Shown in pieces: positions 1-56,999 of a stretch of 64,000 nucleotides of DNA. Position 1 is the first letter of the stretch; each line of letters opens with the position of its first letter. The notes beneath the pieces are model-generated. The model worked only from the letters and a program-made list of their open reading frames with translations. It was not told the origin of the DNA and did not search any database. The translations under genes and the position numbers were made by a program. The DNA is from Owenia fusiformis (lineage: Eukaryota; Annelida; Polychaeta; Sabellida; Oweniidae): the NCBI GenBank assembly GCA_903813345.2, contig CAIIXF020000002.1, positions 11,926,150-11,990,149 of the forward strand. Direction: 5' to 3'.

Positions 1-2519
1 ATCTAAAATAAAGACAACACCACAAAGCACTGTCTACTCCAATCAAACATCTAGTCAAGGGGCAGATATACTAGATAAGTATAAGGCAGCTATTGTGGAA
101 TATTTGAAGTTAACATTTCTCGAAATGCATATCATATCATTTTAGATCACATTTTCAAAATGGCTAACTGTTACATATCCGGTTTATATCTTAAATAAAA
201 TGTTAAGATTTTATCCCGTGAAAGAGAATCACTTCCTTCTAAAGTTATGAAGAAGACAAAAAACAAAGTACATGAAGCTACCATATTTTTGATATAAATG
301 AGTTTTGACTTCAATAAATGCCAAAATACATTGCAGTTAAAGAATTGGGTTAAGAAATACTCAAAAGCTTTAAATATCGCAAGTAAATAGGGACAAATAT
401 TATTTGAACGTAATGATTGATCGATGGAGGAACTTACAAACTTGGAGTGGTTTCTCTGTATATCTTTGTTTAATCAAGGGATTGTTTTTGACATTGGAAA
501 TATGACAAAACTTGGCTTTAAATTAATTTACAATCACTTCGGAACTATAGTCTAAAAGCCAAACATACATGTACTCAGCTATAAAACTTGTAAATGACAC
601 AGCCATCCTTCATTCAAAAGGCTTCATTTATTGCATAGTGGAAGGAAGTGAAATACACTAGGACAAAATGTTATCAGATAGGTAAAATGCTTACGTATAC
701 GAATCTTAGATTTATTATATAGTATGAAGTGGAGGCCATTGTAAATGTTATGAGATAATACTAACATCGTATGCCCTTTAGTCTGCTACTATTATAAAAT
801 AGTCACCTGAATCGAATGTCAGGTAGTGTTCACCCTATAAATATTTATATCAACTATTCACGTTTAGCTTGAATCAAGTTGAAAATTCAATTTCCATTTC
901 CAGTCAATTTCCTTGTCTTTCATTGCAAGCAATGATCGCTCTACTACTCAGATTTATAATCATGGGCTTTCAATAGAATTTTAAACTCTATACAGATTTA
1001 ATTCCCAACGAATCAAAAATATTTCAAACAGATAGTCTGAAGTTCTTTAATTTCAAACCATGGTGACATAATTCATTTTTAATTGCAAGATAATCAAATC
1101 GATAAAATATAATTATTCATTTATAAGTATTTATGAACTACATTTCGAACAGTATTGTGGCATTGATTTAACTAGAGATACAGTTGACATGTTAAAAACA
1201 TGGTTAACGTTCATATAGAATACTCTCCTTTTGTAAAGATATCCAAAATAATGTGGTCTGGTAGTGTTGCTTCCCACTCCTCCTTCCCGTAAAGTACATC
1301 ATTTAAATTAGCATTTAATATGGCTCCCTTGCATTTTATGAGACTAAAAATGTGGGAGAAAAATGTGACCTACTTTTAGATATGCCGATCACGTAGAACG
1401 TACGGACTAATTTATTCTTATATCCTTGTATTATGTTGTTATTTCCCAAACATCATTAACATTATTGATGTTTTGTATCCTAAATGAATAAACATGAAAA
1501 TCCATACACCTAATATACCTACATGTATACTTCATAGGCCCTGGGAACAAAAAAATCGAGTCCAGTTCTGTATGAGGAGGTTACTTTGTTGTGATCATAA
1601 GTTAACTACTCTCTACATCTCCAAGTACTAACACTACTTCTGGTTTGATAACTGGCAATCTATTTGTGCCAAGAATGGAGTGCAAAGCAGGATACACGAC
1701 ACGTTTGAGATTACGAGGACATGGTGCAATACTTAAGGTTAAAGGTGCACTGTATCATACAGAGATTCTATGATGTGCAAATGTATGATATCTATATTAA
1801 GTATTAATATTCAGATATCATAACATTATTTTGAAGTTTTACTAACAGCCCTGGTCAATATCTTAAATAATGATGTATTTACTTGGATCGAATTTCCAGA
1901 AATTGGTATATTATTAGTGATTCTAAAATCGGAACAGTCTAGAAGAAAATCTTCACTTTAGGTAACTGATTCTTACTTAAATTATTAAAAACTACATGTA
2001 GTTCAACTGAATTGTAAACAAAAAACCTTACAACTTACACTGGTTCAAATTAGTTTCCGTAACAAAATGTCGGAACCTCGAAGATTTTTGTTCATAAACG
2101 TGTAGATTTTCTTTAACATATGATATTGACACATAAAAATGTCGTGGAGATTCTGCCTACAACTCGTAAAATTAGAAAAAAAAATCCGGGAAAAAATAAA
2201 AATCGTTTAGAGGTTCCGACATTTTGATACCGAAACGGATAATAGAATAGAAAATAATTCTGAAATTAAAAGTAACTTGGTCAAAAGACGTGAATGGTAA
2301 AATAGGAAATTCGAAAAGACTATAATCTCCGCTGGTTGTCTTAAGTTGTTCATTTTAGTTGCAATATGTACGTGTGAATGTAGGATATGAAAGTTTGTTT
2401 GTGAAGTGTTTATTGTTCTGGAAGCTCACATAAATGCAACTTATCTCACATGACATTTCATTCGGAATGTGCATGACAATATATTATACCAAGGGCTTTC
2501 TATTGAATGCCCATGATTA
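1..2519. other. AT-rich sequence with no gene seen
   Basis: No ORF above background, RNA gene or clear repeat border was recognised here. Short phrases such as GGGCTTTCAATAG recur elsewhere in the window (961, 2495 and 8903) and suggest old dispersed repeats. Confidence 0.5.
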
Positions 2520-2521
2520 TA

Positions 2522-2707
2522 CAGGGTGTCAAATAAATATGTTCATGCTAGTTGAGCTACACATCTGAAACTTCTTGTAATAGAGCTGCTCAATGAAGTC
2601 TACTTTAATTGTGCTAAAGAGCAATACAGATATCATGCAGACAAAAAAGTTATGCAACATTATGCGGAAGACAAAGTTGAGGGGGGACATATTTATTTAA
2701 CACCCTG
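2522..2707. mobile_element. Small TA-flanked MITE (Tc1/mariner type)
   Basis: The terminal inverted repeat begins CAGGGTGTCAAATAAATATG and its complement is near-perfect at the right end (2688-2707). The element is 186 bp long with TA on each side, the usual mariner-type duplication. It has no coding capacity. Confidence 0.75.
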
Positions 2708-2709
2708 TA

Positions 2710-4270
2710 GAATTGTTCAATTCACCCTAACTTTTTTCTCTTTTTCATAATTATGTTTTATTATATCAGACAGGATATTTTTCTAGTTGTTACAATGTTC
2801 TGTATACAGATAATTTACAGGGCAACAGGTTCCGCTGTCTGGTAGAAAAACAAGAAAGCATAAGTTATGGTTATATATATTATGAGGCCAGATGAGGGAG
2901 TTCTTTGAACTTTCAAAGCAAAATAAATTAAGTATTTTTGATGTCGTGGCTGCGGCATGACCACAAACAACCAATATAAATCTAATATATTATTTTACAT
3001 TATATCGACTTACCAACGGAAGATGTATATGGCTGAATGTCTCTAGTGTATGTGCCGTTCTGCTTGATCGTACCATTTCGTTTGGCTTGACCATGTGGTG
3101 GTAAATCATTGTCTAACAGTTTTGTCGAATCGCTGAAATCATTTCTACCCATATTGTCCTTTTGAAAATATATACCCTTTTATACTTTCCACTTCATTCA
3201 GTCTGCATTAATAATTATTTTCTGTTTTTGATCATTTACATCATACGATTTCTTGCAATTGTATTTCTTAATTATTGTAATCCTAATTTTCCGATTTGGA
3301 GTTGTTCTATCAAGATGGATCCCAGATCTATTTTATTGTTAATGCTATTCATACTTTGTCGAATCCTTGTTTCGGCTATAGTAGTGTCACAATCATTACA
3401 AGATCTCACCTAGAGTATTTGTGCAGCTATGTACAATGTAGTAGAATGATGCCATGTTGATACTGTTTGCACTTGTCGACGTCCTTTGAAGTTATCCTTT
3501 ATACGATTGGGTATTTATGAACCGCAGACTTTCCTCTAGAACTGGAATAATAACATAAAACAACAACTAATGATTGTACTGCAAGTACAATTATAAACGT
3601 TAACGTAATGTGAATGCATCATCTAATCTGAGATATTACTTTACATGGTCAAGTAAATACCTATAATGCCCATACTTGTAATACTTGTATTCATGACAAA
3701 AGGCCACTGGGGAATCCAATAACGTTGAAACTATCAAACTATGGATCGATTGATTTTCGAGGTCAGGATAACAAGTCAGGATATACTGTACTTCTCCCCT
3801 ACATCTGTGCAATTTAACTAGCATTTTCAATTATTGAATTACATTTATAATGTATCGTACAACGTTTGGCGTTTCCCAGATTGTATGCAAGACGTGACCC
3901 CGGGGACGTGACAAAATGTCATGGCGTGGAAATATTGTTCCAAAAGCCCTATAAGTTTATCAATTAAAGTAATTCTGTATGTAGTGGTTTCTTAATTGGA
4001 GTTCGATGTTATTTTCAGGAACTCGTGAGTCATTCCATACATATTTCAGTGTTCATCCTAGATAGTAATATACCTAGATTACTTGTTTAGGATAAATCAT
4101 TTTCTACTATGTTTCAAAATTTAGAAAACGCAAAATATTGGTCACTGAATTATCTCCTTTTTACATGAAATTGACATTTATACTTATCCTCGACTATTTA
4201 TCTAGGTATCTTTATGCACTTTTTGATGCCAAAGAATTGTCAACACCAATTTAACGTTGACAAAATGATC
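2710..4270. other. Non-coding sequence with no gene seen
   Basis: AT-rich. Short ORFs are present but none has a recognisable domain, and no repeat borders were identified. Confidence 0.45.
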
Positions 4271-4275
4271 AAAGC

Positions 4276-4430
4276 TATGACGGGGGGTGTATAGAGATAT
4301 TGTATATCGTATAAGAGGCTGAAAATTTATTGTATATTGTATAAGAGGGGGCAAAATTTATCGTATAAGGTATAAGAGGTGTAAAAAATATGGTATATGG
4401 TATAATAATATAATATGGTATCTAGAATAA
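4276..4430. repeat. Minisatellite with GTATATTGTATAAGAGG-type units and a left inverted end
   Basis: Three to four units of about 30-35 bp built on GTATAAGAGG..AAAATAT.GTATAT follow the motif GACGGGGGGTGTATAGAG. A matching array in the same orientation, ending in the inverted form CTCTATACACCCCCC, lies at 8680-8845. Confidence 0.65.
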
Positions 4431-4639: not shown

Positions 4640-5630
4640 TAGTCTCAAATAAAAATTACGCCCGATGATCAGAAGAAATGAACGGAGGGGGAGTAGATCT
4701 AGCTGATTTTCGGTAGAAAATTCAACAAATCTTGAAGATTTATTTTTTCAAGAGAAAGTTTACAATTGAATGACTAAATGAATAGACGCAGTGGATGGGG
4801 AAATATGTTAAGTCTTGGATTTTTTTAACTGTCGAGTTCTAAAATAAAAGATCTATTAAAAAAGTGCAGCGTCGCCAACGTGCAAATGCCAATGTTTTTG
4901 CTATAAATCAAACAACAGGGGTCTACACGACCTGTAATAAATACTTGTAAGTGAAGTAATTATCACAAAACTATTGTCATCATTGGTTTTGTAAAACATG
5001 TTACCATACGTTATATAAAAAGTGATCGAAAATTATTAAAATTGAACGGAGGGGGAGGGGGAGTAATGTGTCTATAAGACATATGAAAACTTCCAATAAC
5101 TCCATATGTCCCCATTTTTCACTTTCAGAGTTGTAACATCAAGTTACTCAGTAAGTGAGTTCATTTTTCAAGTACACGAATTTGTGGAAATTTCTTCCAT
5201 CTTAAAGACATATTACTCCCCCCCCTCCGTTCACTCCCCCCTCCGTTCAATTGTAATTATTTTCGATTATTTTTTATCTATTTTGGAAAATTATTTTAAA
5301 AAACCAGCAATTAATTTTGTGATAAAAATGTCGCTTATATATTTATTTCATGTCGTGCAGACCATTGTTGCTTGATTTATAGCAAAAACATTGGCATTTG
5401 CATGTTGGCCACTCTGCGCCTTTTTTAATAGATTTTTTATCTTAGAACTCTATCAGTTCAAAAAAATCCAAGAAGACCTAACATATTTCCCTTTGCACTG
5501 CACCTATTCATTTAGCCATTCAATTGTAAACTTTTTCTTGAAAAAATAAATCTTCAACATTTGTTGAATTTACCGAAAATCAGCTACTCCCCCTCCATTC
5601 ATTTCATCAGATCACCGGGCGTGAGACTGC
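4640..5630. repeat. Foldback element, arms of about 420 bp
   Basis: Left arm 4640-5060 and right arm 5210-5630 are imperfect inverted copies. The tips read CGCCCGATGATC with AATGAACGGAGGGGGAGTAG on the left and the inverse (CTACTCCCCCTCCATTCATT, GATCACCGGGCG) on the right. Central G-rich and C-rich tracts face each other. The ORF at 5106-5375 is not supported. Confidence 0.75.
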
Positions 5631-5820
5631 CAAATGTCATTGACTCATCTTAACTTTGATGTAAAATATGGTCACTATGGCTACTCGTGTTTCGGGGTAT
5701 GTGGGATAAATCATTAAAATATTTGAGTATAAAGTGTTCATACAGCGCATGTTTTAATATAAGCATCATAATGCTAATATAGCATAATATAGCAAAAGGT
5801 GTTTATTTGGTCTTTAAACT

Positions 5821-14128: not shown

Positions 14129-14300
14129 TCAATATTTGGGTATTTTCTTCGATCCCCCTCCTTCTCCCATATCCTTGCGTTTCTTTATCAAATTCTGGAT
14201 CTGCTGCCATTCTCGATCCAGTGCTTGTTTTTGGTCTTTTGGACCAGCGCGACGAGTCTTTCGCCCATCAGCCATCTTGACCCCATATTGGAAAGCAGCC
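14129..14300 (-). CDS. IK: IK exon 16 (last coding exon, stop)
   Basis: Encodes KAAFQYGVKMADGRKTRRAG, a basic helix (ALDREWQQIQNLIKKRKDMG) and the C terminus GGSKKIPKY, then TGA. It matches AAFQYGIKMSEGRKTRR...VKRPKY. Acceptor TTTTCAG. Confidence 0.97.
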
Positions 14301-17300
14301 CTGAAAATACAAACATATTGTAATGGTTTTGATATAAGCACATAATAATCTACGTAAAATGAGGAGACGGGGGTTAAGGATCTATCTCTAAATACCTCTA
14401 AATAGTCCTATTTCTGTCATCTCAGATATCCATTCTTAGAGCATCACTCTGGACTCAAGTGAACATTCACATGTCACGAGTCTCCCGTCAGATTAACCTT
14501 TTTATCCTCATTGATGACATTAAATCAACATGTGAGGATATGTTTCAAACTATTTGTATAGTATTTGCATATTGCTTTGATGCCAATATTCTTCATTTAT
14601 CTGATACGTACTAATAGATATTTTTGGGCTCTCAGAAGAGTTAAGGTTTAATAATAAGTTTGATGGAGTTGGTTTTTCAGACATTACAATTTTCGATATT
14701 TTCTAACCCTACTATCACACCAAACTAGTTCTCACTACGTTCTCGAAAACGGGCTTCAACTGTGTGCGAACGGACTGGACGTACTTAGAACCGTTTGGGG
14801 TCTATTTACAAACTTCGTCGAACGTACTTGAACGGGTAGGTCCTCTAGAACTTAGAACATGCTCAAAATGCTCTCTAGGTCGTCACGTTTTACAATTAGA
14901 ACGAGTGACAACGTACTAACAACGAACTGGACGTACTACGAACGGAACCGTCGTACTTCAATCCTACTAGGGACGTTTTTACAACGAGTTGAACTATCTG
15001 AGGACGGATTGAGAACGAGGTAGAACTAATTCCAAACTGATTTAAAATGATTAAGAACGTATCAAAGACTGCTTATGAACGAGTTAGCAAAAATATAGCT
15101 ATCACACCAAACAAGTTGCCACTGCGTTCTTCAAAACCGGTTTTAGACTGTGTACGAACGGAATGAACGTAGCTGCAACTTTTTAAGGACTATTTACGAG
15201 CTTCATGAACGTTCTCAGACGGGAAGGTGATTTTAGAATTTTGAAATGATTCAAAATTCGATGACGAGCATACCGTTCTGTAATCAGGTCATGATGACCT
15301 TCTAGACTAAGGGACGCGTTATACGACGTTGCACACCGACGTGGTGCGACCTGAACGAACTGCGAATGAGATGGACGTATTGAAGACTGTTTATGAACGA
15401 AGTAGCTAATTATTTTAGACATATTTTCCGACCACAGCTAGATTGAGCCCATTTTACGACGTTTTCGTAGGACTGGCAAGAACAGGTAAAACTAGTTTGG
15501 TGTGATTGTGATAGGGCGGTTACTCTTATCATGATTGGCAGAGGGTTTCTTATGGCTTCACTATTGGTACGTAACCATTTCTGAAGTTCCGTCTGGGTAA
15601 CCCTACTATCACACCAAACTAGTTCTCACTACGTTCTCGAAAACGGGCTTAAACTGTGCACGAACGGATTTGACGTACTAAGAACCCACTAAGAACCGAT
15701 TGGGATCTGTTCACAAACTTCATGAAACTACTAGAACGAGTAGGTCCTCCAGCACTTAGAGCATGCTCAAAATTTTCTGGTGATTGTCAAAACGTTGCCG
15801 AATCGGTTTTAAACTGTGTGCGAACTGAATGAACGTAGCTACAACGTTCTACAATCTGTTTACGAACTTCATGGACTTTCCCGGGCGGAGTATGTGATTT
15901 AGAATTTTGAATCCATTCAAAATTCGATGGCGACCATACCGTTCTGTAATCAGGTCATGATGACCTTCTAGACTAAGGGACGCGTTATACGACGTTGCAC
16001 ACCGACGTGGTACAACCTGACAGAACTGCGAATGAGATGGACGTATTGAAGACTGTTTATGAACGAAGTAGCTAATTATTAAGACATATATCCCGACCGC
16101 AGCCAGATTGAGCCCGTTTTAGGACATTTTCGTAGGACAACCATAACTCTATCAATATAAGACTATGATTATTAATACTTTGCCAGAGGATCCCACATTG
16201 AATGAAGTCCTTGTGTGCCAAATCTCAGAGCAATTTACTTCCATTTAAGAAAAATATCGAAGAAATGGAGGGTTGCATTTTTTTTGGGTCACCCTGTAGT
16301 AATCGAGTGAAGTAGCAGTGTTAATGCAGGGATGAATGGGGAATATAAGGGTTAAGATAATAAAGATGACATACTTAGGCAGGGCTTCTTTGTTGGACAT
16401 ATAGTCACTGTAGTCCTCCTGAGTCTCAAAGTCCCAACGACCAATTGGGCCTTTCTTGTTTCCCATGTCCATCTTGGTATAATCAGCCTCATCATCGGAG
16501 TCATCAAGGGCATCAGCCATCTCAGACATACTAGAATAGACATACAAGTTGTATTAATGGTATTCATTATTATCGTATGATCTGTAAAATAAAGCCCTCT
16601 GATTGGTCAGTTCTTGTGCTGTACCCACCTGTATTGCTACTGAGATTGTCCCCGTTGATCATCTGGGAGGGGAAATCTCAGTAGCAATACAGAGGATCAC
16701 ACGATAACAACGTTATTGATCGATTTGAAGTGCAATACAGGATATATTCTGTCTCGATATTCTGTACTGGCACTCGACTTCGTCTCGTTCCAATACGGAA
16801 TTCTCGAGCAGAATATATCCTGTATTGCACTTCAAATCATTCAATAACTTATATTACACATTAGAGTGGGAATAGAAAGTGTCCAGATATTCTTCCTTAT
16901 CTGTACTAGGCTGCTATACATGGAGTCTTCCTCTTATTAACATTTTGTGAATCCAGTGTTTTAACCATTTAAAACAATATCATATAGTAAGACTTGGGAC
17001 TTTATGAGAAATGTTTTATGAAAAGAATGCCTTAGTTCCTTTATTGTTTGCCCAATTCTACTAATATCTTAAATTGTAGACATGTATTTTACTTACCCTG
17101 GGTAACATTCAGCATAGCTGTCAACTTCTACTTTCTTCTTTAACTTCTTGTTTCTTTCATCCTCCTTCTTTCTTTCTTTTGCCTCATCTTGGCCCCAGCC
17201 CTTAAATATACAATAGATTAGAGTTATAGCACAACACATTTAAGAAAGGCTCTGCCACCAGCCCTGAAATATACAATAGATTAGAGTTATAGCACAACAC

Positions 17301-20300
17301 ATTTAAGAAAGGCTCTGCCACTAGCCCTGAAATATACAATAGATTAGAGTTATAGCACAACACATTTAAGAAAGGCTCTGCCACCAGCCCTGAAATATAC
17401 AATAGATTAGAGTTATAGCACAACACATTTAAGAAAGGCTCTGCCACCAGCCCTGAAATGTACAATAGATTAGAGTTATAGCACAACACATTTAAGAAAG
17501 GCTCTGCCACTAGCCCTGAAATATACAATAGATTAGAGTTATAGCACAACACATTTAAGAAAGGCTCTGCCACCAGCCCTGAAATATACAATAGATTAGA
17601 GTTATAGCACAACACATTTAAGAAAGGCTCTGCCACCAGAACTGAAATATACAATAGATTAGAGTTATAGCACAACACATTTAAGAAAGGCTCTGCCACC
17701 AGCCCTGAAATACACAATAGATTAGAGTTATAGCACAACACATTTAAGAAAGGCTCTGCCACCAGCCCTGAAATATACAATAGATTAGAGTTATAGCACA
17801 ACACATTTAAGAAAGGCTCTGCCACCAGCCCTGAAATATACAATAGATTAGAGTTATAGCACAACACATTTAAGAAAGGCTCTGCCACCAGCCCTGAAAT
17901 ACACAATAGATAAGAGTTATAGCACAACACATTTAAGAAAGGCTCTGCCACTAACCCTGAAATACACAATAGATTAGAGTTGTAGCACAACACATTTAAG
18001 AAAGGCTCTGCCACCAGCCCTGAAATATACAGTACATACAAAAAACTCTCTATCACCAGTATAAGAAACCTTCTGAAACAAGCCCGGAAAATATGCAATA
18101 CATTTCATAAACTCTCTGTCCCAGGCCTAAAATATACAGTAGATTAAAGAGTGTCTCTCTCTCTCTAGCAATGAAATATACAATATACATACAAGAAGCG
18201 CTCAGTCCCCAAGCCGAAAATATTCAATAGATTAAAGAGTGTCTTTCAGTCTCCAGGCTTGAAATATACAATAGATTAAAGCGTCTTTCTCTGTCCCATT
18301 GTATCCTTTCAAAGTATTTATTTTAAATATAAACTTGGCTGATATGACATTCAAAGATTTATAACAAAAACATTTCACAAGGATTTTCAAAAGTAAGCTG
18401 AGCAGAGCAAATTCATTGAATAAAGCATTAAATATTATATTTACAATATTTATCTTGGTATAGATGATAACAAAACATACATTAAATAGAACCTACCTTA
18501 TATTTTTCATTGATGTTTTGCACAAAGTCCTTGGCAGAGGCTTGTGGCTGCCTATCTCTCTCCTCATCCTAACAGGGACAAAATAGCATTATAATCAAGA
18601 TATTCACAATGTCTGCATTATAACTAAGACTATATGAATAAGGGACCAAAAGTCTAGAATCAAATGTTCTTTTAGTGACATACACAAAAATAGCATTACA
18701 ATCAAGATATTCACAATGTCTGCATTATAACTAAGACTATATGAATAAGGGACCAAAAGTTTAGAATCAAATGCTCTTTTAGTGATATAAACAAAAATAG
18801 CATTATAATCAAGATATTCACAATGTCTGCATTATAACTAAGACTATATGAATAAGGGACCAAAAGTTTAGAATCAAATGCTCTTTTAGTGATATAAACA
18901 AAAATAGCATTACAATCAAGATATTCACAATGTCTGCATTATAACTAAGACTATATGAATAAGGGACCAAAAGTTTAGAATCAAATGCTCTTTTAGTGAT
19001 ATAAACAAAAATAGCATTATAATCAAGATATTCACAATGTCTGCATTATAACTAAGACTATATGAATAAGGGACCAAAAGTTTAGAATCAAATGTTCTTT
19101 TAGTGACATACACAAAAATAGCATTACAATCAAGATATTCACAATGTCTGCATTATAACTAAGACTATATGAATAAGGGACCAAAAGTTTAGAATCAAAT
19201 GCTCTTTTAGTGATATAAACAAAAATAGCATTATAATCAAGATATTCACAATGTCTGCATTATAACTAAGACTATATGAATAAGGGACGAAAAGTTTAGA
19301 ATCAAATGCTCTTTTAGTGATATAAACAAAAATAGCATTATAATCAAGATATTCACCATGTCTGCATTATAACTAAGACTATATGAATAAGGGACCAAAA
19401 GTTTAGAATCAAATGCTCTTTTAGTGATATAAACAAAAATAGCATTATAATCAAGATATTCACCATGTCTGCATTATAACTAAGACTATATGAATAAGGG
19501 ACCAAAAGTTTAGAATCAAATGTTCTTTTAGTGACATACACAAAAATAGCATTACAATCAAGATATTCACAATGTCTGCATTATAACTAAGACTATATGA
19601 ATAAGGGACCAAAAGTTTAGAATCAAATGCTCTTTTAGTGATATAAACAAAAATAGCATTATAATCAAGATATTCACAATGTCTGCATTATAACTAAGTC
19701 TATATGAATAAGGGACCAAAAGTTTAGAATCAAATGCTCTTTTAGTGACATACACAAAAATAGCATTATAATCAAGATATTCACCATGTCTGCATTATAA
19801 CTAAGGGACCAAAAGTTTAAGGCCCGGTCACACCGCCCGGATGTTGCTGGAGCGTTCCTTGAATGTTGAAAAAATTCATCAACGCTCGTCAACGCGCACA
19901 AAATGGGGAAAAAAACAAAAACACGGGCGTTGGCTTAGCGGTGCACTGCTGAAGCCGGCGTTGCTTTAGCGTTGGTTAAGCGGTTGCGAGCTGTAGCTAG
20001 CATTTGTTTAGCGGTAATGCGAGCGTTGGTATAGCGGCGTTCTGCGCATGAGAGCGTTGCCTCGGCGGGGGTATAAATAGCAGCAGCGTTGGTTTAGCAG
20101 CATATCGCGTTTGACTACTGGGAAATTATTTCAAGTGGGAAGTGTTTAAGAGTAAAGACCTTTATTGGAATTTGTAACTTTAACAAAAGTCCTTCAAGGA
20201 TTAAAGAAGAAATGTTTTAAATCTAAAGTGCTTCGTATTAATGTAATATGACATTAAGAATGAATAACATTACAATTTTCTTTAATAATCTCTCATATCA

Positions 20301-23300
20301 TTTCAAACAAACATATCACAATTTAATCGTTGCATTTCCATTACTTGGAACCGATTTACGTTCAAATTGCTTTAGCAATGTCAAATAACATTTACAGCAA
20401 AGTAATAATCATGACGCATGACAAATTTTTGCATTGCTGTGCGAGCATCAACTTTTTGTATAATACCATGACAAGTGCAACATTTTACAAGCTGCGCAGA
20501 AAATTCACAGATAATTTATTGAATTGCTTGACGTGAAAACACTAGGTATATACTATATTTGAATAAAGGTCTCAGTAAAAGTCTATTTGTATTAACATTT
20601 AATGAAAAACAAAAATCGCATAATTCACCTTTTTAAAATCCAAAATCACAAACTTTGAGCGCTCAATTAAGGAATTTACAATGCAAAAAATTGAAATGCC
20701 AGACATGAATATATATCAAATGTAAAATGCACAAGTGTCTCCACAGTGTTCTACACAGTGGTGCATTTCTCCACGTATTTATAGCCAAATTCTGGTCCCG
20801 CTCCGACACCTCTATACCAACGCCAAAGCAAAGTTCATCGCCTCCATGGAGCGCTGCGACAACGTCCGACACCGTTCCAACAACCCCATGTACGCTGATA
20901 AAACGCTAACAACCGCTCCACCGACGTTTGTGCAACGTTTAATCGCCGCCCGGGCAACGCTGGCGAAGCGGCGGTGGTCCAGCGTTTAAGATTTCTGCGT
21001 TGGTCTAGTGGATTAAAGCGTCCACGAACTTGCGTCTAGCGGTGCCAAACTTTGACTGGGCGTTGGTGGAGCGGTGATAAACTTTGCCAGGGCGTAAAAT
21101 TGTCCCTTTTCAACGCTCGCAATATTTTGAGCAGCTCAAAACTTTTGGAGCGTTAGGATGGCCACTCGAGAAACATCCGCGTTGGCCGAGCGTTTACAGC
21201 GTTGCTTTAACGGATGCCAACTTTTGTTAAACGATGGTGAACGTTTACGAGCGTTGATGATTTTTTTCAACGTTCAAGGAACGCTCCAGCAACGTTTAGG
21301 CGGTGTGACCGGGCCTTTAGAATCAAATGTTCTTTTAGTGACATAAACAAAAATAGCATTATAATCAAGATATTCACAATGTCTGCATTATAACTAAGTC
21401 TATATGAATAAGGGACCAAAAGTTTAGAATCAAATGCTCTTTTAGTGATATAAACAAAAATAGCATTATAATCAAGATATTCACAATGTCTGCATTATAA
21501 CTAAGACTATATGAATAAGAGACCAAAAGTTTAGAATCAAATGTTCTTTTAGTGACATACACAAAAATAGCATTACAATCAAGATATTCACAATGTCTGC
21601 ATTATAACTAAGACTATATGAATAAGGGACCAAAAGTTTAGAATCAAATGCTCTTTTAGTGATATAAACAAAAATAGCATTATAATCAAGATATTCACAA
21701 TGTCTGCATTATAACTAAGACTATATGAATAAGGGACCAAAAGTTTAGAATCAAATGCTCTTTTAGTGATATAAACAAAAATAGCATTACAATCAAGATA
21801 TTCACAATGTCTGCATTATAACTAAGACTATATGAATAAGGGACCAAAAGTTTAGAATCAAATGTTCTTTTAGTGATATAAACAAAAATAGCATTATAAT
21901 CAAGATATTCACAATGTCTGCATTATAACTAAGACTATATGAATAAGGGACCAAAAGTTTAGAATCAAATGTTCTTTTAGTGACATTAACAAAAATAGCA
22001 TTATAATCAAGATATTCACAATGTCTGCATTATAACTAAGACTATATGAATAAGGGATCAAAAGTTTAGAATCAAATGCTCTTTTAGTGATATAAACAAA
22101 AATAGCATTATAATCAAGATATTCACCATGTCTGCATTATAACTAAGGGACCAAAAGTTTAGAATCAAATGTTCTTTTAGTGACATAAACAAAAATAGCA
22201 TTATAATCAAGATATTCACAATGTCTGCATTATAACTAAGACTATATGAATAAGGGACCAAAAGTTTAGAATCAAATGCTCTTTTAGTGATATAAACAAA
22301 AATAGCATTATAATCAAGATATTCACAATGTCTGCATTATAACTAAGACTATATGAATAAGGGACCAAAAGTCTAGAATCAAATGTTCTTTTAGTGACAT
22401 ACACAAAAATAGCATTACAATCAAGATATTCACAATGTCTGCATTATAACTAAGACTATATGAATAAGGGACCAAAAGTTTAGAATCAAATGCTCTTTTA
22501 GTGATATAAACAAAAATAGCATTATAATCAAGATATTCACAATGTCTGCATTATAACTAAGACTATATGAATAAGGGACCAAAAGTTTAGAATCAAATTC
22601 TCTTTTAGTGATATAAACAAAAATAGCATTATAATCAAGATATTCACCATGTCTGCACTATAACTAAGACTATATGAATAAGGGACCAAAAGTTTAGAAT
22701 CAAATGTTCTTTTAGTGACATAAACAAAAATAGCATTACAATCAAGATATTCACCATGTCTGCATTATAACTAAGACTATATGAATAAGGGACCAAAAGT
22801 TTAGAATCAAATGCTCTTTTAGTGATATAAACAAAAATAGCATTACAATCAAGATATTCACAATGTCTGCATTATAACTAAGACTATATGAATAAGGGAC
22901 CAAAAGTTTAGAATCCAATACTCTCTACATTAGATTTTTGATGATGAAATCCTTATTATATTCACCATGTCAAGTCATCAATCAATATGTAATATATTGA
23001 TAGATAACTAGGAAATATTTGATTTCATACCTCATCAACTGGTCGTTCAAAGTAAGTGCGTTTCTTCTCTTTGTCTCCATGACGATCTCTATCACGGTCT
23101 CTTCTGTCTCTGTGACGTTCACGGTCTCTGAAAAGTTAAAGAAATAGATAATATTATAATCTGGACTAACACACATAGTCAGTCATGTTATTCCATGTAT
23201 CTGAGTATAAACTCAGTTAATATCGGATCATTCGATTTCAATTTCATCAGATCACATGAACTAAGTTGATCGTTATTGGAAAGTGAGTGTGTTTTATCAA

Positions 23301-26300: not shown

Positions 26301-29300
26301 ACTGGTGATATCAGCATTCAACAATGAAAATTAGGAGCAGCACAATGGAAACAATGCCTTCAGAGAGTACAGATGATAATCTTGAACAAATCAGTTTCAT
26401 ATTCAATTTGATCTCAGTCATTTAATCTTAAAAAATATGAATATACAATACTCCCGTAAATATAAGACACAACGTGATAAACTTTCTCTGATCCTCAATG
26501 GTGATAAAACATTAAGTAGAGCTGAGAATCTGATTGTTTTAAAGTGCAGTGCCATTTTCTTCGAGAGATGTGTAAATGTCTGAAATCCTCCACAAAACAA
26601 TTTTTATCTTATTGTATCTCATTTATTTTAATCAATAGTATTGATTGAATACATTGTATATTGTAATTGTAGAACGTGGCTAATAATGCTAAAAGCACAG
26701 CCACTAACACTGTATTTTTGTATTGTATTCTTTGTACAAATGAATAACTTAATAAAAAAAAAAAAAAAATTTAATCTTACCTCCAAAGTAGGACAATCTG
26801 CTTTGCTGCGGATCATAGTGGTTGGAATATCAGAATCTATATATTCATCATCAAGGTCTACTACATAGGCCATTCTGTGGGGCAGGAACAGTTCATTCCT
26901 CTCAGGTAAGTTCTTCTTGAACACAACTCTGTAGATACTGCGTCCTAGTGGTAAAGAAAGCAATGGTTTGTTACTCTTTTTGTCAACAATAGGCAAGGCA
27001 TGAACATGCAAAATGTCACCATCTATCATCTGTTACAAATGCTGAATGCCAAACACCAACTGGTGCTACAAAAAAAGTTGGAGATCATAAAAATTTGTCA
27101 CTGATAACATACTGGCAAAGTTTATTGAAATCTTTCAATTCAGCTTGGCTCTTTATGTCAGAACATAAAACTGGTCATATTTCAAAATAAAAAGACATCA
27201 AACTTATAAACAAACTAAGAAATATTTCCATATATTTAGTCTTTACCAAGTTTAGATTTGAAGTCAATCCTGTCCTCTTCATCTTCTTCCTCTTTCTCTT
27301 TGTGTTCACCTCTGAAATATTAAATACATTTAACAACATTAAGGCAAAAAGGGGAAAGAACAAAAAAGCATAAGAACTTCAACTTAGCCAGTCATAAGGA
27401 AAAAATCCCCAATTCAGTATTATAACTTAATCCTATTGCCTCTAAGACCTGAAAGTTTCAATGCAGTACCTTTAGTATTAACAACATAACGTTAAAAATA
27501 AAAAGTATGGTCCAAAAATGAAATACCGGGCTATAAAGTTATGATGTCTTACCTGGGAACTTTCATCTGACACTTGTCAACCAGGTGTTGAGTTGTAAAT
27601 GTGTCTTCTTGGAATAGAAAAAAACAGTTATATGTTGTCTAGCTACATTGTAGACATTGTCCAGTCAAAATATACATTCCTGAAAGTCCATTGGTGTACA
27701 AGTCTTGCAATACTGTACTGCAGATCAGGTCAAAAAGTGCAATGTTGCTACATTGTAGTCTTTGCTAAAAGTTATTCATATCACATTCACTTTACTCTTC
27801 CAAAGATTACTGTCAAGTTGCCATCATGGTGTTCAGCAAGACTGATAAGTCAATAATTGAGGCATGTTTCATTGAAAAGGGATGGAAGGGAGCAAGGATT
27901 GCTCTGGAATTCCCAGGGAAGAAGTGGAATAGAAGATCAATCAATAGAATCATCAAAAGGCTAGAGACAAAGGGATGCACTGATAGAAAGCCAGGGAGTG
28001 GTAGACCAAGAAGTGCCTGTACACAGGAGAACATTGACTATGTTGAAGAAATGATATCATCCCAAGAGGAACGACCAGGAATACACAAATCACAGCGGCA
28101 GATTGCTAAAGATTTGGGAGTTTGTCGTAGATCTGTTCAGAACATATGACCAAAAAACTTAACCTCAAGGCTTTTAAACGGATTAAGGTGTCTAGGCGTG
28201 ATGAAACTGTTAAACAGAAGAGAAAAACACGTTGCAAACGTCTGTATGACCGTCATTCAAAGGAGGATGTAAAACGCATCATGTTTACTGATGAAAAAGA
28301 CTTTACGTTGGAGATTGCAAGGAATAGACAAAAAGATGTTGTCTATGGTGTGAATAAGAAGGATATTCCAGTTTCCCGATTGTATCATGAGTGTTCAAGG
28401 TTTTCAAAAAAACTAATGGTTTCAGCAGGTGTCTCCTGGAATGGAAAGACTGGAATTTATTTTATAGACACTGAGAAAACCAAGGTGAATACTCATAGTT
28501 ACATAAAACTACTAGATGAAGGCCTTCTTCCAGACTGCCGCCAACTGTATCCTGACAACAACTACATTTTCCAGCAAGATGGGGCAACATCTCACACTAG
28601 TAAAATTGTGCAGGGGTCACACCTGCATTCATCAGAAAAGATGACTGGCCACCACAATCTCCAGATTGCAATGCAATGGATTACAGTATCTGGGACTCTC
28701 TTTCCGAGAAGGTTTATCAAGGCCGAAGGCAGAGGTTTAAAGAACAGGAATTGAAGGACCGTATTACCCAATGTTGGGAAGATATCTCCATGGAACAGAA
28801 AAGGAAGCTCATAAGTTCCTGGAAGAAAAGGCTTCGAGCAGTGTGTAGTGAGGATGGGGGCCCTATTGATCATTTATTTTAACTTTCAAGGTAAGATGTC
28901 ATAACTTTATAGCCCGGTGTTTCATTTTTGGACCATACTTTTTATTTTTAACGTTATGTTGTTAATACTAAAGGTATTGCATTGAAACTTTCAGGTCTTA
29001 GAGGCAATAGGATGAAGTTATAATACTGAAAGTTTCACTTATATACTACTAGTTTCTGAGATATTAACTCTCAAATTCGGGACGTTTTTTTTTATCCACC
29101 CGATATAAACATATCAAATCTGGAATAGACTCCTAATTTAAATTACACATTAACCATGTTAACAACTCAGAAATTCTTCAAACTTACGGTTTAGCTGTCA
29201 ACACCTCATCGAGAAACGTGTCTTCATCCTCTTTGATGTTGATCTCTGCCCGAACCTGCAAATGGAGAATGAACATTTACAAGGCTTGGGAGGATGACAG

Positions 29301-32300: not shown

Positions 32301-35300
32301 TATCGTATGCCACCATTTTGTCCACTTTAACAAAAGTCATACACAATCCATTCCTGGTCATCTTGTATACTGAGATCATGTGCAAATATCCAGGACTATG
32401 TAAAGATCTTCGAAATGAATACCTACCTTTTCTAAGAGAGCATAATCGAGTCCCTTCACTAAATGTGTATGCTCCATATCACCTCCTAGATACTTGGATT
32501 CCTGGATCAGCTGTTTTCTTCTCTCTGCATAGTTCTCTCCCCTTGAAGTAAACCAATTAATTAAATGCACATACACCGTGATCAACTTATTATCAACCTA
32601 TTTCTATATCTGTTTGAGTATTTTTCATGGAATCTTTATTTTTATAAAGTTCTTATTTGGTTTTATTATTTTGATAAACCCTGTTTGTTTTACTATCTGT
32701 CCTGACAACGGTGGAATATGATGTAAACCCATTCCTAAATCTAGCTCTAATCAATTGAAAAATTATGAATGAAGGACTCATTATTTTATTTTTCTAGTGG
32801 AGAGAAATGGATATAAAACATTTTGGGTTTAGTTGTTAACTTACGCTTTAGCATCAGGTGCAACTGCTCTGTAATCAGCTGTGGTTGACACGACTTCATC
32901 TTCTTTCCCTGGCCCATCATCGCGTCTCTCCTTCGCCTGGATTAAATGAATAGCTAATTCATATAATATAAATGCTTCTCTGTGCCGTTGCCAGATTGCT
33001 TCGTTAGTTCATGTTTGAGCAATTAAATGGACACTGATTTTAACTCTATTTCCAACTATAATCAAGCATTATGAATAACACATTTTAGTGATGTAATGAT
33101 GACGTAGATCATCAACTTCAGTTAGAGTCATTCTCAGTGAGGCCGTTTTCTTTAAAATTCTCTAATATTGCGGGTGTTTGGGCATTCATTTGTGGTGGAA
33201 TACAATCGTTTTATTAATTTGCATGGTGAAACTTTTGGAATCAAAATTCAACTTAGTTTAGCCGAAATCTGAGGTTTATCAAAAACGAAAGAATCTTGAA
33301 TGAAGCTAGTTGCTGTAGCGTCATCCAGCTGTAGAAACAGTTATAATTCAGTAAATCAATATTTTTGAAGTTTCCCGATGGTTTATTTCATGCCTCGGGG
33401 ACATCAGTTGAAATGGAACTTAAATCAATTACCCCATTTGATTTATGCATACTGATCCACTGTAAATTAAACCACTGAAGATAATAGTACGAAGGTAGTG
33501 AACAGATTGACATGTTTGTTTGCTTTGCTGTGTCGGTAAGGAAACATGCCTATGACGTCATCAACTGTTCAAATTAAAACCAATCAATGAGGTCTTGAAT
33601 ATTTGTTTCAAGTTGTTCCTGAGGCGATACAATGTCACGCATGATAGCATTATCTTCAAAGAATCAAGAAGCAAAAAACATACTTCCAAAAAATGATGTA
33701 ATTTAACATCTGGGCTTTGTTCACTTGAGGGAAAAGTGAAACATAGAAGCAAGAAAAGAAATCTACTTTTTCTGTTTTTTCTTGCTAAAAAGCTGTGATT
33801 CTAATGAAAATTGATTATGATTTTAACAAAAGATTTTGTTGTTAGGAATGTTATAAGTTTATCCAGTGAAAAATAATTGAGAATTGAAAAAGAGATCAGG
33901 AAAAAAGAGGTGTATAGCTTGTTCAGTCTCAGCAACTAGTCTTTGCATTTTTTTGGACTTCGCTTCTTAAAAGAGAGCTTCGTCTTCACTCTTTCAGTTT
34001 ACAATAAATCTCAGTGTAGTAAATTTGAAATGGCTGTCACAGCTATGCATGTAGGGTATTATTGATTTTGTCTTCTTCCCACTTTACAGAAGACTGTTTT
34101 CATACTTTGGAGTGGATAGCTTTTAACACTCACCCTGTCCCTATATTTCTTTTCCAATTCTTTTTGACGTTCTTCTTCAACTTTCTTCAACCTGGCATAC
34201 ATCTTTTTCTTCTCTCGTCTCCTCTGTCCTGGGTCATTCTCTTCTGATGTAAATTCCTTTGGCATCCTACAAAGAATCTACACATAAATCCGTGCTCTTA
34301 CAAATCATTTTTGTTATGTGAGTAAATTCAAGAGTAATTAAGAAATATTCACCCATGAAAACCAATTGATTTAAGATAACCAGGGGTCCAGGTCAAACTT
34401 GAACTAGAAAAACAGCAACTCCAAGGAGTAGCAAATCCCACCGAACAAAACACATTTTGATAAAAAGCAAAGCTCCTTTGTCCCTAGACATCGGCATATA
34501 AAATCTGAACAAAGTCCATCCACTGGTAGTTGAGTTATCAAATATTACGTTTTTTTTTACCAAAAATGGTGGCCATTTTGAAATCAGGGGCCACCTTGGA
34601 AATGTCTTCTTAGCATAGCTCCTTTGTGTCTAGGCATCAGCATATAAAATTTGAACCCAATCCGTCCATTGGTATTTGAGTTATCAAAGATTATGTTCTT
34701 TTAAAAAAAATGGCAACCATTTTGAAATTCATATGCCATTTTGAAAATTCTTCCTCAAACAGAGCTACTGTGTCCCTAGGCATTATCATATAAAATTTAA
34801 AACAAATACGTTCGCTGGTATTAGAGTTATCAAAATTTTATGTTTTTTTTAACGAAAAATGGCCACCATTTTGAAATTCAGTGGCCATCTTGAAAATTCA
34901 TTTTTGAACAAAGCAGCTGTGTCCCTAGCCATCATCATATAAAATTTGAACCATATCCGTTCAATGGTATTTGAGTTATCAAAGATTATGTTTTTTTAAG
35001 GAAAAATTGCCGTCATTTTGAAATAAAGCGGCCATCTTAAAAATTCTTTGTCGAACATAGCAACTGTGTCCCTAGGCATTATCATATAAAATTTCAACCA
35101 AATCTGTTCACTGGTATTTGAGTTATCAAAGATTACAGTTTATACGAAAAATTGCCGCCATTTTGAAATTAAGTGGCCATCTTGAAATTTTTTTTTCCAA
35201 CATAGCTACTGTTTCCCTAAGCATCATCATATAAAATTTGAACCAAATCCATTGACTGTTATTTGATTTATCAAAGATTACATATTTTTACGAAAAATGG

Positions 35301-38300
35301 CCGATATTTTAATATTAAGTGGCCATCTTGAAAATCTCTTTTTGTGGGAAACTCCTTTGTCCCTAGGCATCAGCATATAAAATTTGAACCAAATCTGTCA
35401 ACTTGTATTTGAGTTATCAACAATTACATTATTTACGAAAAATGGCAGCCATTTTGAATTGAGCGGCCATATTGAAAATTCCTTCTCGAGCAGAGGTCCT
35501 ACACTCATAAGGCATAAGCCTATGAAATTTGATCTAAATCCGTCAACCGGTATTGGAGTTATCGCCCGGATGGACGGTCGAACAACGGCTTCTCTATATC
35601 CTCCTCGAACTTCATTCGGTGGGATAATGAGTAGATTGTTTATGAAACATTGTTGTTTTCTAAAACAGTGCTGTACAGCGCTGTAAAAACAGTACTGAAC
35701 TACACTGTTCAAAACAGGTGACGTTTAAATAGCACTATACATCGCTGTACAGTGCAGTGCTCACTGCAATGTTCAGAACACAGCGCTGCAAGATGATGTT
35801 GCGGATTGGGGGTGTAAGGCTCCATATTTGGTAAATGTGCTCTGTTCTAAACAGGAGTTTTACAAATACCAACTAGAAAATGGCAACTCCACGGAGAAGC
35901 AAATCCCAACGAACACTATATAAATCATCAATCTGTACAGTCACAATGTAATATTTACCATCTACTCTTACCTTCAATAAATATTTTAATCATTGTAGTA
36001 TCATGTAACAATACTTTCGAGTTAACTCTAAGTAATGGCAAATTTCTGCTCTAGTCAGCCATTTTGAATTTTCAGAGGCACAAATCAGAAAAACAATGCC
36101 ATTATTGTGATCTACTCTGAAATACCTTCAATTTGAGTATAATATAGCCATACTTTTAAGAGATCAGAAAATAATTGCAAAATCCCGCATTAGGGGGCCA
36201 TTTTGAATTTTTTGAGGCCCGAATCAGAAAAATGCTATAATATTTGCAATCTGCTCTAAATTGCCTTCTGCTCTAAATTGCCTTCCATTTGAGTAAAATA
36301 AAGCTATACTTAAAAACATCTCAAATCCGCCATTTACGGCCCCTGGGGATCAGGGTGAAAAACCCGGGATATATGTGAAATAGATAGATGTTGTTAATAT
36401 ACTACCAAAATTTCAAAATATAATATTTAAAAATCTCTCATTGTTAATTGGAAACTGGTCACCAGTGGCGTAGGAACAATGTACGCCAAACCGCCAGTGC
36501 GTAGTGTTGAAAAGTGAGAATAAAAAAGACTTTTTAACTTTCCTATGTTCTTTAGTCATATTTTCTCATTGTTTAAATTGTAAAAGTAATCTCGAGCAAA
36601 CTAGCCTAAAGAAATGTTTTGTGGATACCATATCATTATTGGTCTGTCTGGCAAATATCATTTAACAGATTGAATTCCCTTACCAACATGCTTTATTTCA
36701 TGAAAATCGAGCCACTATTGACTGTCTTATAAATACAATTTCGCCAAATATTCGTGAATCGCGTTCTCTTCACGAATTTGAGAGGAAAGTGTTTTTTTCA
36801 AAAACTACTTGATGAATACCTTTGACATTTTTTCTGCATTTTCCGTAATGCTTATGCTAACTATGGTATCATATAATTATAATGATGAACCTCTTTAAAT
36901 TTAGATGTATATTTTTTTTATTCTCCCCTACCCCAATTTTTCAATTTCACTATCGATTTATATTCCGTTGCTATGCAAAATCATAGACACGAAATTATAG
37001 TTAAGTCAACAATTATCTATTTCTTACTAAATCACTAATTGTTATTGGTAGTACTTTTTGAAATATGGATGTTAAAGACAAAAACAACTTGAAAATGCTG
37101 ATTATTCAATTACACGTTCCATTGATTTCAGTTCTAGAAAAGCGATAACCTAGTTTTTTTTCATTTGACAAATAATAGATTCTTGTTTTATAACATTTTT
37201 TGGCATCCCCTGAGTCACGTTGACCTCGATTTGACCTTTGTGGTGGGTGTATTTATTTGTTTCATTGATCACGAATGCGTTTCTTTATATCAATTGATCA
37301 AACTAGTTTCTTTAATCTGTACGTATTGTATTGCACGGTACACGATGGAATCCGACAATACTACATATCTTCAGATCTTAATTCAATTATTCGAAAATGA
37401 TTAAAAAATCTCTAATTGTTTTTGGAAATTGGTCGTCTCAATCGTTCGAGATATTAGCAAAGTGAGAATGATTTGTGTCGAGATTTAAAAGATAGGCTTT
37501 CCAAGGTGATTTTAAAAGATGAAAATCATTCGAACATTTTAAAGCACATTAAAAAGGTATCGGGGATTTAAAGCTTGCATATGAAATCGAAACGCCAACC
37601 TATACGTATGACCAATCGCCCATACAAATGCATCGCTTAAGTATTTCCGTTCACATTTAGGTTGTGAATATTGCAAGCTTGAAATCTCTGTTACCATAAA
37701 ATGACGTTTTACGAGCATAATATAGGCGTTTTGATATAGAATATTGACACAATTGTTTCATATTTTTTTGGCGGGATTTTTGGCGTAGTGTTGAATTTAC
37801 ACCTTCCTACGCCCCTGGTCACCTATATCATTCGAGAAAAGTAACATTTACATTTACATGAGAATTACGTGAGTTATGTCGAGATTTAAATGATCGGCTT
37901 TCCATGGTGATTTTATATGATGAAAAACATTTGACCATTTAAAGCACATTAGAAAGGTATTGCCATATAATGACATTTTACGAGCATAAAATGGGTGTTT
38001 TGATACAGAAGATTTGACACAATTGTTTCATTTTTTTTATCTATTTGGCGTAGTGTTGAATTTACACCTTCCTACACCCTAGATAAAGACCCTCTTAATA
38101 GCATACTTTCTCATGCATCTATACAAAGAAAAACAATTTCTTGAAATCTATGAGTTGAGAAATGGCTATGACAGGTCACACACATACTATGAATGATATT
38201 TATAGGATCATGATATAACAGAGGTTAAATACTGTAGATTGGGTTAATTTGGCGCTACTTAATTTGGCGATTTTGCCATTTTTGGCTTAATGGCAGCTAT

Positions 38301-45319: not shown

Positions 45320-48130
45320 CATGTTGAAATGGACCATGGCTATACCATGGTATGACCATTGTATACCATGGTATATGGCCATGAAATGCAATGAAATACC
45401 ATGGTAATACCATGGCTGATCATGATCGTTAAATGGCACCATTGTATTTCATGGTTAACAGCACGTTTTTAACATGGAGTTTTCCATTGAAAAAATACTG
45501 TTGTTTCGCAGTATTTCATGGTCAGAAACCATCAAATGAATGATATCATGGTCAAGTTCTCGAACCCTGACATCATTGCATTTGATGGTTTCTTGACCAT
45601 GATATCATTGCATTTGATGGTTTCTGACCATGAAATACTGCGAAACGACAGTATTTTTTCAATGGGAAACTCCATGTTAAAAAAGCGCTCCTGACCATGA
45701 AATGCAATGGTGCCATTTAACGATCATGATATACCATGGTATACCATGGTCAATTAACATGTAATTTTGTATCTAAAAAATACCATCGTTTCACAGTATT
45801 TCATGGTCAAATACCATCAAATGCAGTAATATCATGGTCTAGACATTCAACCATGATATGCAATGGAGCCATCCAATTATCATGATCTACCATGGTGTAC
45901 CATGGTCACTTAACTCAAAATTTTGCATTTAAAAATACTGCTATTTTGCAGTATTTCATGGTTTCAAACCATCAAATGCAATGAAGTACAGTCAAGATGT
46001 TTAGTCCAAGACTAGAGGTTGGACTTACAAAATTTAGAGTTGATCTCCTATTTTACCGACAACAGTCAAAAAAAAGTAAAGCAAATTTGTTTTACAAAAA
46101 AAATTTTGTTTCTAGGGTTATTAACTTAATTATTCATAATAGAAATTAATTTATTAAATAAAGGAACAAAAGTATATAAAGTTGTGATTTTGTGAATATC
46201 AGAATCACTAATTTTTATAATTTGGTTATCTAATTAACATTTATTAATAAAGACATTTCATGTAAAAAAACATGGTCTTTCATTGTATTTCACTGCATTG
46301 CAAGAAAGACCATTGCATTTCATTGCATATCATGATCAATCATTGTATTTCATTGCATTTCATGGTGAAACGTGGTATTCCATTGTATTTCATGATCCAT
46401 TTCAACTCTGACCAATTTTAGACTTCGACACTCTTCTAGAGTTCTTTTGGCAATGAAATACCATGGTATAACCATGGTATTTGATGGTCAGGTTTGACAA
46501 TGAAATGCTATGAAATACAACCAGAACAACGGCAATGCCAAAGCGTAGCGAATCCCATCGAACAGCCATGGATGGCATTTTTACAAACAAAGTATATAGC
46601 AAAAATGGCAGCCATTTTTCAAAATGGCCGCCTTCTACCAAAAGTGCCATTAGACCATGTGCCATGCTTATAGTATTCACATACCAAATATGAACAAAAT
46701 CGCTCTACTACTTTTCAAGATATAGTAAAATACGTTAAAATGGCGGCCATTTTTCAAAATGGCCGCCTTCTACCAAAAGTGTCATAGGACAGTATGTCAT
46801 GCTTATAGTATTCACATACCAAATATGAACAAAATCGCTCCACTACTTTTCGAGTTATAGTAAAATATGTTAAAATGGTGGCCATTTTTCAAAATGGCCG
46901 CCTTCTACCAAAAGTGTCTTTAAGCAGCGTGCAATGTTTATAGTATTCACATACCAAATATGAACAAAATCGCTCCACTACTTTTCAAGTTACAGCAAAA
47001 ATCGTAAAATAACGAGTAAAGGCCGCCATTTTTCAAGATGGCTGCAATGTGCTTCTTTAATATCTACATTTCTAGCTTTATTTATGTCCTATATAATTTT
47101 TTTACATCTCAAACATGTTGCTATTACAGTTTTACATATTGCACCTAAATTACTGTAAATTCGGCACTAAAATGGCCACCATTTTTAAATGAGCGGCCAT
47201 TTTGAAAATCGGCTTTCGAGCAGAACTTCTACCCCCATAGGGTATATGTGTACAAAATATGAACAAAATCGGGCCAACGGTATTTGAGTTATTGCCTGGA
47301 CGGACGGACGGACGGACGGACGGACGTACGGACGGACGGACGGAGGCGTTCCCTATATCCCTCCGAACTTCGTTCGATGGGATAATCAACCACGAAATAC
47401 AATGATATGCCATGATAAATGATAGTTATGATTATGGCAATGAAATACCATGGTATGACCATAGTATTTGATGGTCAGGTTTGACGATAAAATGCCATGA
47501 AATACCACCAACCATGAAATGCAATGATAAAACCATGATAAATGAGAGTTATGATTTTGGCAATGAAATGACATGGTATGACCATGGTAATTGATTGTCA
47601 CACAGTACAATGAAATGCCATGAAATCAGTCATCAACCATGATATACCATGGTAATACCATGGTAAATGATGGTCAGGTACATAACAATATAAAATATCA
47701 TGGTATGACCATGGCATTTGATTGTCACATCGTACAATGAAATACCATCAACCATGATATACAATGGTAATACCATGGTAAATGATGGTCAGGAACATGG
47801 CAATGAAATACCATGGTAGTTGATTGTCACATCTTACAATGAAATGCCATGAAATGCAATCAACCATGATATACCATGGTAATACCATGGTAAATGATGT
47901 TCAGGAACATGGCAATGAAATACCATGATAATACCATGGTATTTGATGGTCAACTTTAAACATGAAATACCATGAAACATGGTATAACATGATATAACAT
48001 GGTATACCATGGTAAAAAATTGACCAAAAAACATCATTGCCACCATGGTCAGAGTTGATGGTAATTTCATTGCCGATCATGATAGACCATGGTAAACCAT
48101 GGTATACCATGGTATCATGGTTTACGTTTA
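45320..48130. repeat. CATGG-rich palindromic satellite
   Basis: Long clusters of CCATGGTATACCATGG, AATACCATGGTAA and GAAATGCAATGAAATACCAT occur at 45320-46010, 46260-46522 and 47387-48130. They are interrupted at 46523-47386. A larger inverted pair (45470-45545 against 45605-45680) carries CAGTATTTCATGGTCAGAAA and its inverse. ORFs here are repeat shadows. Confidence 0.8.
46523..47386. mobile_element. Insertion with tandem core and ATCCCATCGAA ends, inside the CATGG satellite
   Basis: The left end reads AGCGAATCCCATCGAAC and the right end GTTCGATGGGATAAT. The core has about four units of ~130 bp with AAAATGGCGGCCATTTTTCA, AATATGAACAAAATCGCTCC and similar motifs. A GGAC microsatellite (47285-47345) precedes the right end. 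CAACC is present on both sides (46518-46522 and 47387-47391), a possible 5-bp duplication. Same architecture as 34420-35640. Confidence 0.7.
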
Positions 48131-56911: not shown

Positions 56912-56999
56912 TACAGTATTTCTAAAAAAATGTTTTAATTTAACATTGCTCTCAATGGGAAATTATTTTTTATTTTTTAAAACAAGCCTCCGCAGACAA

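Follow-up and report, generated by a model that had tools for sequence, protein, structure and literature searches.

The stretch of DNA analysed here (the window) comprises 64,000 nucleotides of the polychaete Owenia fusiformis (contig CAIIXF020000002.1, positions 11,926,150 to 11,990,149 of the forward strand), and its minus strand carries the IK gene, which encodes the protein RED. The subject of this report is a tandem array of 63-bp units in one IK intron, which runs up to the acceptor of the exon downstream, and the relation of that array to similar ones at splice sites elsewhere in the same genome. Identification of the gene is secure at its C-terminal end: six joined C-terminal exons align end-to-end with the C-terminal part of human RED/IK (251 residues, E 2.4e-60), and the joined exons match Pfam RED_C (E 1.1e-54); an exon upstream matches Pfam RED_N. 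Annotation here covers the C-terminal exons of IK; the exon numbers 13 and 14 are those of the original prediction, a model's reading of the letters of the window. All IK features described below lie on the minus strand.

Exon 14 is a coding exon of 104 nt (17097..17200), with the acceptor TTTAAG and the donor CAGG|GTAAGT after 17097. Its acceptor junction, at 17201/17200, reads ATATTTAAG|GGCTGGGGCCAAG, or ATATTTAAG|GGCTGGGGCC if followed further into the exon. Exon 13 (18497..18568; 72 nt, phase 0) ends in the donor AAG|GTAGGT. By these exon coordinates the intron between them, which holds the array, spans 17201..18496 and is 1296 nt long.

Tandem Repeats Finder (TRF) places the array at 17195-18031, with a period of 63, 13.3 copies and 97% matches. 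When segments are counted off in register, starting at the edge of the exon, 13 of them (17201..18019) differ from their consensus at 0-4 of 63 positions; the following segment differs at 34 of 63. The exon-proximal segment ends in the genuine AAG and joins exon 14 directly at 17201/17200, and the rest end in CAG; a partial unit (18020..18031) contributes the most distal CAG decoy. The upstream decoy acceptors number 13. All of them read ATTTCAG, 11/13 have the branch-point-like CTCTAATC 5' of it, and in 9/13 copies the AG is followed by an exact GGCTGG start. No recursive splicing site (AG directly followed by GT) is present, as each of the 13 copies has either CAG|GG or CAG|TT. By weights that are general consensus values, not trained on this genome, the genuine acceptor comes out at -1.4, below every one of the decoys (-0.1 to 3.1). 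If exon 13 is joined to a decoy, its frame runs through GWWQSLS to TAA. In these respects the original prediction was accurate: it had described about 13 units with a branch-point-like motif and a CAG acceptor, the last of them joined to exon 14, had called the AAG weaker than the decoys, and had read the same seven codons before the stop.

The array DNA finds one match in the genome (498 Mb in 525 contigs), the IK locus itself, in a search that skipped very common words; on this ground a dispersed repeat was rejected as the nature of the array. A 300-aa open frame over it on the minus strand is a by-product of the 63-base unit, which has one stop-free frame. No known structured RNA was matched in Rfam at the gathering threshold in the window from 12000 to 34000.

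Beyond the regular units lies an older, degenerate set of junction copies with a TATTGTATATTT core (18032..18295; TRF periods 44/88). It had been proposed that units far from the exon are diverged and near ones uniform, and the gradient is there: most near units are less diverged than the older copies and than the two 63-bp units farthest from the exon, which show 4 and 2 differences. The copies distal to ~18031 are irregularly spaced and are not 63-bp units. Three of these old copies can be aligned to the junction with an identity of at least 62%; the AG has been lost from two and is kept in one, whereas it is kept in all 13 upstream 63-bp copies. The near-identity of the regular units points to recent turnover more than to long conservation.

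The source of the amplified segment can be approached from both sides of the junction. Compared with the start of the exon, the 14 bases that follow the AG match at 8, 7 and 10 positions in the old copies and at 9/14 in the 63-bp unit; random 14-mers from the intron (a background that includes the array) average 3.1 matches, and 5% reach 7. When 40 intron bases are taken together with the junction, none of 1000 shuffles reaches the score against the old copies. The first duplication probably crossed the IK intron/exon border, and the amplified segment consisted of the end of the intron with its acceptor and, probably, some of the start of the exon.

The survey for comparable arrays drew on chaperonin and kinesin genes from elsewhere in this genome. 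Nine clusters of chaperonin genes were sampled (12 regions, Pfam PF00118), and 33 kinesin regions were taken in two rounds, those of the first round picked as compact genes and those of the second being part of the remaining kinesin loci. By eye, one chaperonin cluster is HSP60-like and the others CCT-like; C11:129001-133999 and some other matches were not included, nor were aldehyde dehydrogenase and proteasome genes. Exons were located by Pfam matches and bounded by per-exon splice-site scoring, which gave 153 exons in 41 loci; 123 were acceptably modelled, yielding 246 junctions, and 30 were dropped. A junction was counted when it lay inside a tandem array by 8 bases or more. GC content is 32 to 37% in sampled loci. 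The 69 arrays make up 11.1% of the sequence surveyed.

Modelled junctions lie inside tandem arrays in 13 cases out of 246 (8 acceptors, 5 donors), in chaperonin and kinesin genes alike. Copies that span the boundary and include exon sequence are clear in these arrays; the copy numbers that follow include the genuine site. One CCT gene (L006) has nine acceptor copies, which take in 41 nt of exon. At a second CCT locus (L011, C11:134000-143500) one donor is matched at 26 places, 25 of them with GT; the copies are near-identical and spaced at 53 bp, and an unrelated 16-bp array separates the two blocks in which they lie (reverse orientation, 3359-4430 and 5367-5670). The same locus has another donor with a mixture of degenerate and intact copies, and an acceptor with four copies. 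Among the kinesins, L026 has 12 donor copies, all with the same 9-base site, and L033 has both an acceptor array (7 copies) and a donor array (17). In a kinesin motor gene (L036, C2:23266000-23270700, 1513-4356, reverse orientation) 18 acceptor copies at a period of 159 bp each carry >100 nt of coding exon; of these copies, 17 lead into AAACCAGTAG and a stop, and one, the last, continues as a longer open exon. Two of these cases stand outside the count of 13/246: L036, since its array was the reason for sampling it, and the L011 donor with 26 matches, the score of which was under the model cut.

The placement of the arrays gives little sign that splice sites are sought out. When arrays are rotated along their loci, a mean of 22.1 junctions falls inside them, against 13 seen, and a count no higher than 13 turns up in 41 of 1000 rotations; by type, 8 acceptors were seen against 11.1 and 5 donors against 11.0. 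Arrays that can arise anywhere but are resisted by coding exons would be expected to show such a deficit relative to random placement. Splice sites are thus not clearly targeted for amplification in this sample, with room for a slight preference when the tally is made by arrays that hold a junction (see below).

Two further comparisons set the IK array among its relatives. A test of reading frame took the nearest aligned acceptor copy as the decoy; a strong copy was used instead of the nearest for the first L011 donor, and for the donor of L004 the decoy was an aligned copy without GT at that base. Use of the decoy produces a frameshift or a stop in 8/10 acceptor arrays (IK included) and in 5/6 donor arrays. 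The stop met in IK is therefore an ordinary outcome, since decoys elsewhere mostly do the same. In splice-site strength IK stands apart: when 16 arrays (10 acceptor, 6 donor) were scored copy by copy, only the IK decoys outscored their genuine site by more than 0.1. Further, none of the 123 modelled acceptors of the sample has A at -3, as the genuine IK site does, though the scoring itself disfavours A.

The account that fits these observations best, and which we regard as probably correct, is that the IK array is a minisatellite resembling the ‘mirages’ of amphioxus, born of a tandem duplication across an intron/exon border, near-neutral, with splicing to the exon-proximal copy, and one of many in this genome. 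On this account, duplication of a segment crossing the IK border would start the minisatellite; unequal exchange or replication slippage would then enlarge and homogenise it, as in any minisatellite; splicing would most likely continue to use the copy that adjoins the real exon; and the array would be carried as near-neutral intron DNA. Near-neutrality would follow because each added copy enters upstream, so that the functional junction is retained. Selection would keep the exon-proximal copy, on which the coding exon depends, and leave the others free. The observations behind the account are the anatomy of the array, its single genome match, the same architecture in unrelated genes and the absence of enrichment at junctions. 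Because the splice sites of unrelated genes are copied in the same way, the array looks like the product of a general habit of this genome, not of a switch particular to IK.

Some of the evidence pulls against this account. The tally by arrays holding a junction, made on the first 29 loci, gives 12 against 9.9 on rotation, the 12 being reached in 221 of 1000 rotations. Nor is every copy intact: the L004 donor copies have GT at the aligned base in 0/3 cases, with one having GT a base earlier. The part of the IK unit that would come from the exon is short, and alignments made with exon alone are weak: the score of the exon start against the 63-bp unit is reached by 58 of 1000 shuffles, and those of the exon start and of the whole exon against the old copies are at chance (528 and 772 of 1000). 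The proposal that the units copy the start of exon 14 may hold: the matches per 14 bases, at 9 against 3.1, speak for it, and the exon-only score speaks against it. The genuine IK acceptor ranks below all 13 decoys, and site strength alone would not predict that the last copy is used. Finally, boundary minisatellites in human genes are reported to generate alternative splicing (PMC2812944), so that such arrays are not to be assumed always silent.

A bolder version of the same idea starts from the rate of about 1 in 20 junctions sitting in arrays of their own copies, with as many as 18-25 copies that frequently share the same splice-site sequence. The true site would have to be told from its copies by position instead of sequence; the spliceosome of this organism would then follow a strict exon-proximal rule, and IK, with a true acceptor that scores below all its decoys, would be the extreme case. 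We hold this only tentatively, as something that may well not apply; the human boundary repeats, which are reported to alter splicing, lower its odds.

The strongest competitor to near-neutrality is leakage. Here the stronger CAG copies would be used in some transcripts, and the resulting stop-containing mRNAs would be cleared by nonsense-mediated decay, with no regulatory role; the array would then be slightly costly, or would be caught in the course of a slow expansion. The facts of site strength speak for it, namely the higher scores of 13/13 decoys over the genuine AAG, the CTCTAATC motif that accompanies 11/13 of them, the standing of IK as the sole array among the 16 with decoys more than 0.1 above the genuine site, and the absence of A at -3 from all 123 sample acceptors under a scoring that disfavours it. 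Exon definition would favour the exon-proximal splice site, a principle that works against leakage. Published cases divide: the boundary repeats of human genes can give alternative splicing (PMC2812944), but amphioxus arrays bearing AG or GT are reported to be harmless to splicing (PMC3087553, PMC3902484). On balance, leakage is possible but unlikely, though it deserves more weight than the explanations that follow.

The original prediction went further and proposed that the array could act as a splicing decoy or poison switch, by which the level of IK protein would set the choice between unit and genuine acceptors and close a feedback loop. In favour of such autoregulation are the decoy frame and its premature stop, which are as first described, and the statement that autoregulation by alternative splicing with a premature stop is common among RNA-binding proteins (PMC6547761). 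A switch of this sort might be expected in splicing-factor genes only, and in an intron of <200 nt; these are expectations of our own and not published criteria. Chaperonin and kinesin genes, none of which encodes a splicing factor, have the same array structure at acceptors and donors; junctions show no concentration of arrays; and a frameshift or a stop is the usual result of decoy use. The near-identical units, pointing to recent turnover, would sit poorly with a long-conserved element. Moreover, the reported role of IK, together with SMU1, concerns introns <200 nt (PMC7198525), and the intron that holds the array has 1296 nt. The regulatory proposal therefore has little in its favour, and we give it very little credence. 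Least credible of all is an error of assembly in the length of the array or in the AAG base: tandem arrays are prone to such errors in general, but this one is <1 kb with several distinguishable units, and many of the loci sampled hold arrays built from other units.

The closest published counterparts are the amphioxus mirages of the globin genes BflGb6 and BflGb9, which copy 5' or 3' boundaries, keep AG or GT in many copies, and are described as showing repeat turnover; reverse-transcription polymerase chain reaction in that report suggests that regular splicing is undisturbed (PMC3087553). A later report describes similar repeats in PGBD5, and cites Adh and troponin C as cases without aberrant mRNAs (PMC3902484). 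The arrays described here resemble the mirages in being minisatellite-like copies at an intron/exon boundary, in often keeping AG or GT, in being homogenised within the array, and in residing in ordinary genes. They differ in that amphioxus is a cephalochordate and Owenia a lophotrochozoan; for IK, in addition, exon sequence makes up a short part of the copies, which outscore the genuine acceptor. The genome has a Hox cluster on C1 at about 18.0-18.5 Mb, with KLTGP behind one homeodomain and KKEHKL behind two more; these flanks are marks of the lophotrochozoan Lox5 and Lox2/Lox4, and amphioxus was rejected as the source on their account. The Hox cluster of Owenia fusiformis is reported to lie on chromosome 1 (PMC9977687). 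A COX1 search, meant to show the mitochondrial code, gave no match.

Human genes provide the next comparison. In genes of segmental duplications, 27 intron modifications are reported to have arisen by minisatellite-type repeats at exon-intron boundaries, and they include cases of alternative splicing and of novel introns (PMC2812944). These internal tandem repeats share with ours the minisatellite units at exon-intron boundaries, and their copy number is described as variable in human. Unlike ours, they belong to recent primate paralogs, come with transcript evidence, and include novel introns derived from exon repeats (PMC2812944); ours lie in conserved genes. Intron gain by tandem genomic duplication is likewise reported for potato RdRp (PMC4974935), where tandem duplication is also proposed as a source of intron structure; in contrast, the IK copies are inside an existing intron, with no sign of a new intron or exon.

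Two other reports bear on parts of the problem. In earthworm metallothionein genes, minisatellites are described in introns, and exon 4 has two duplicated copies that are missing from the transcript (PMC12783039). Unlike in IK, the duplications there are two, one inverted, in one clone, and the portion of that report consulted describes no multi-copy junction array. The poison-exon autoregulation of RBM39 (PMC10477243) is similar in that alternative use would give a premature stop in a splicing-factor gene; it is unlike IK in that IK-type arrays also occur in genes outside splicing. Among the literature matches listed, none was noticed that describes boundary arrays as common in a lophotrochozoan genome.

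The rest of the gene has repeats of its own. The next upstream IK intron is mostly occupied by a 107-bp array of ~27 copies in two blocks (18580..19805 and 21316..22924), the near edge of which lies 11 nt from that intron's acceptor. The possibility that it copies the exon 13 junction was rejected, as 484 of 1000 shuffles reach the score of exon 13 against the doubled unit, and 104 of 1000 do so when intron bases are included. Between the blocks is an insertion (19819..21317, no strand assigned) with 81-nt terminal inverted repeats that are 89% complementary; GGCCCGGTCACACCGCC lies near its end, and its flanks read GTTTA and TTAGAATC. These suggest a target duplication of TTA, a trait of Harbinger-type elements. 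The exon upstream of the intron with the 107-bp array is at 23031..23127, and the exon region matching RED_N at 26775..27032, with approximate edges. Downstream of exon 14 are the next exon, in the RED_C region (16375..16530), and the final coding exon with the stop codon (14129..14300). Elsewhere in the window, tandem repeats of 135-160 bp with AAAATGGC-type unit motifs lie at 34471-35563, 46602-47000 and 56993-57305.

Boundary minisatellites as such were known before, in amphioxus and, as boundary repeats of recent paralogs, in human. What may be new is how common they are in conserved genes of a lophotrochozoan, where the 13 of 246 sampled junctions would amount to natural experiments in the duplication of splice sites. 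Experiments of this type are a classic approach. In IK itself the weakness of the genuine AAG may let some of the stronger copies through, so that leaky use of decoys is a possible consequence of the array. More generally, such arrays bear on whether proximity to the exon or to the intron decides between identical sites, and may contribute to the gain of exons or introns.

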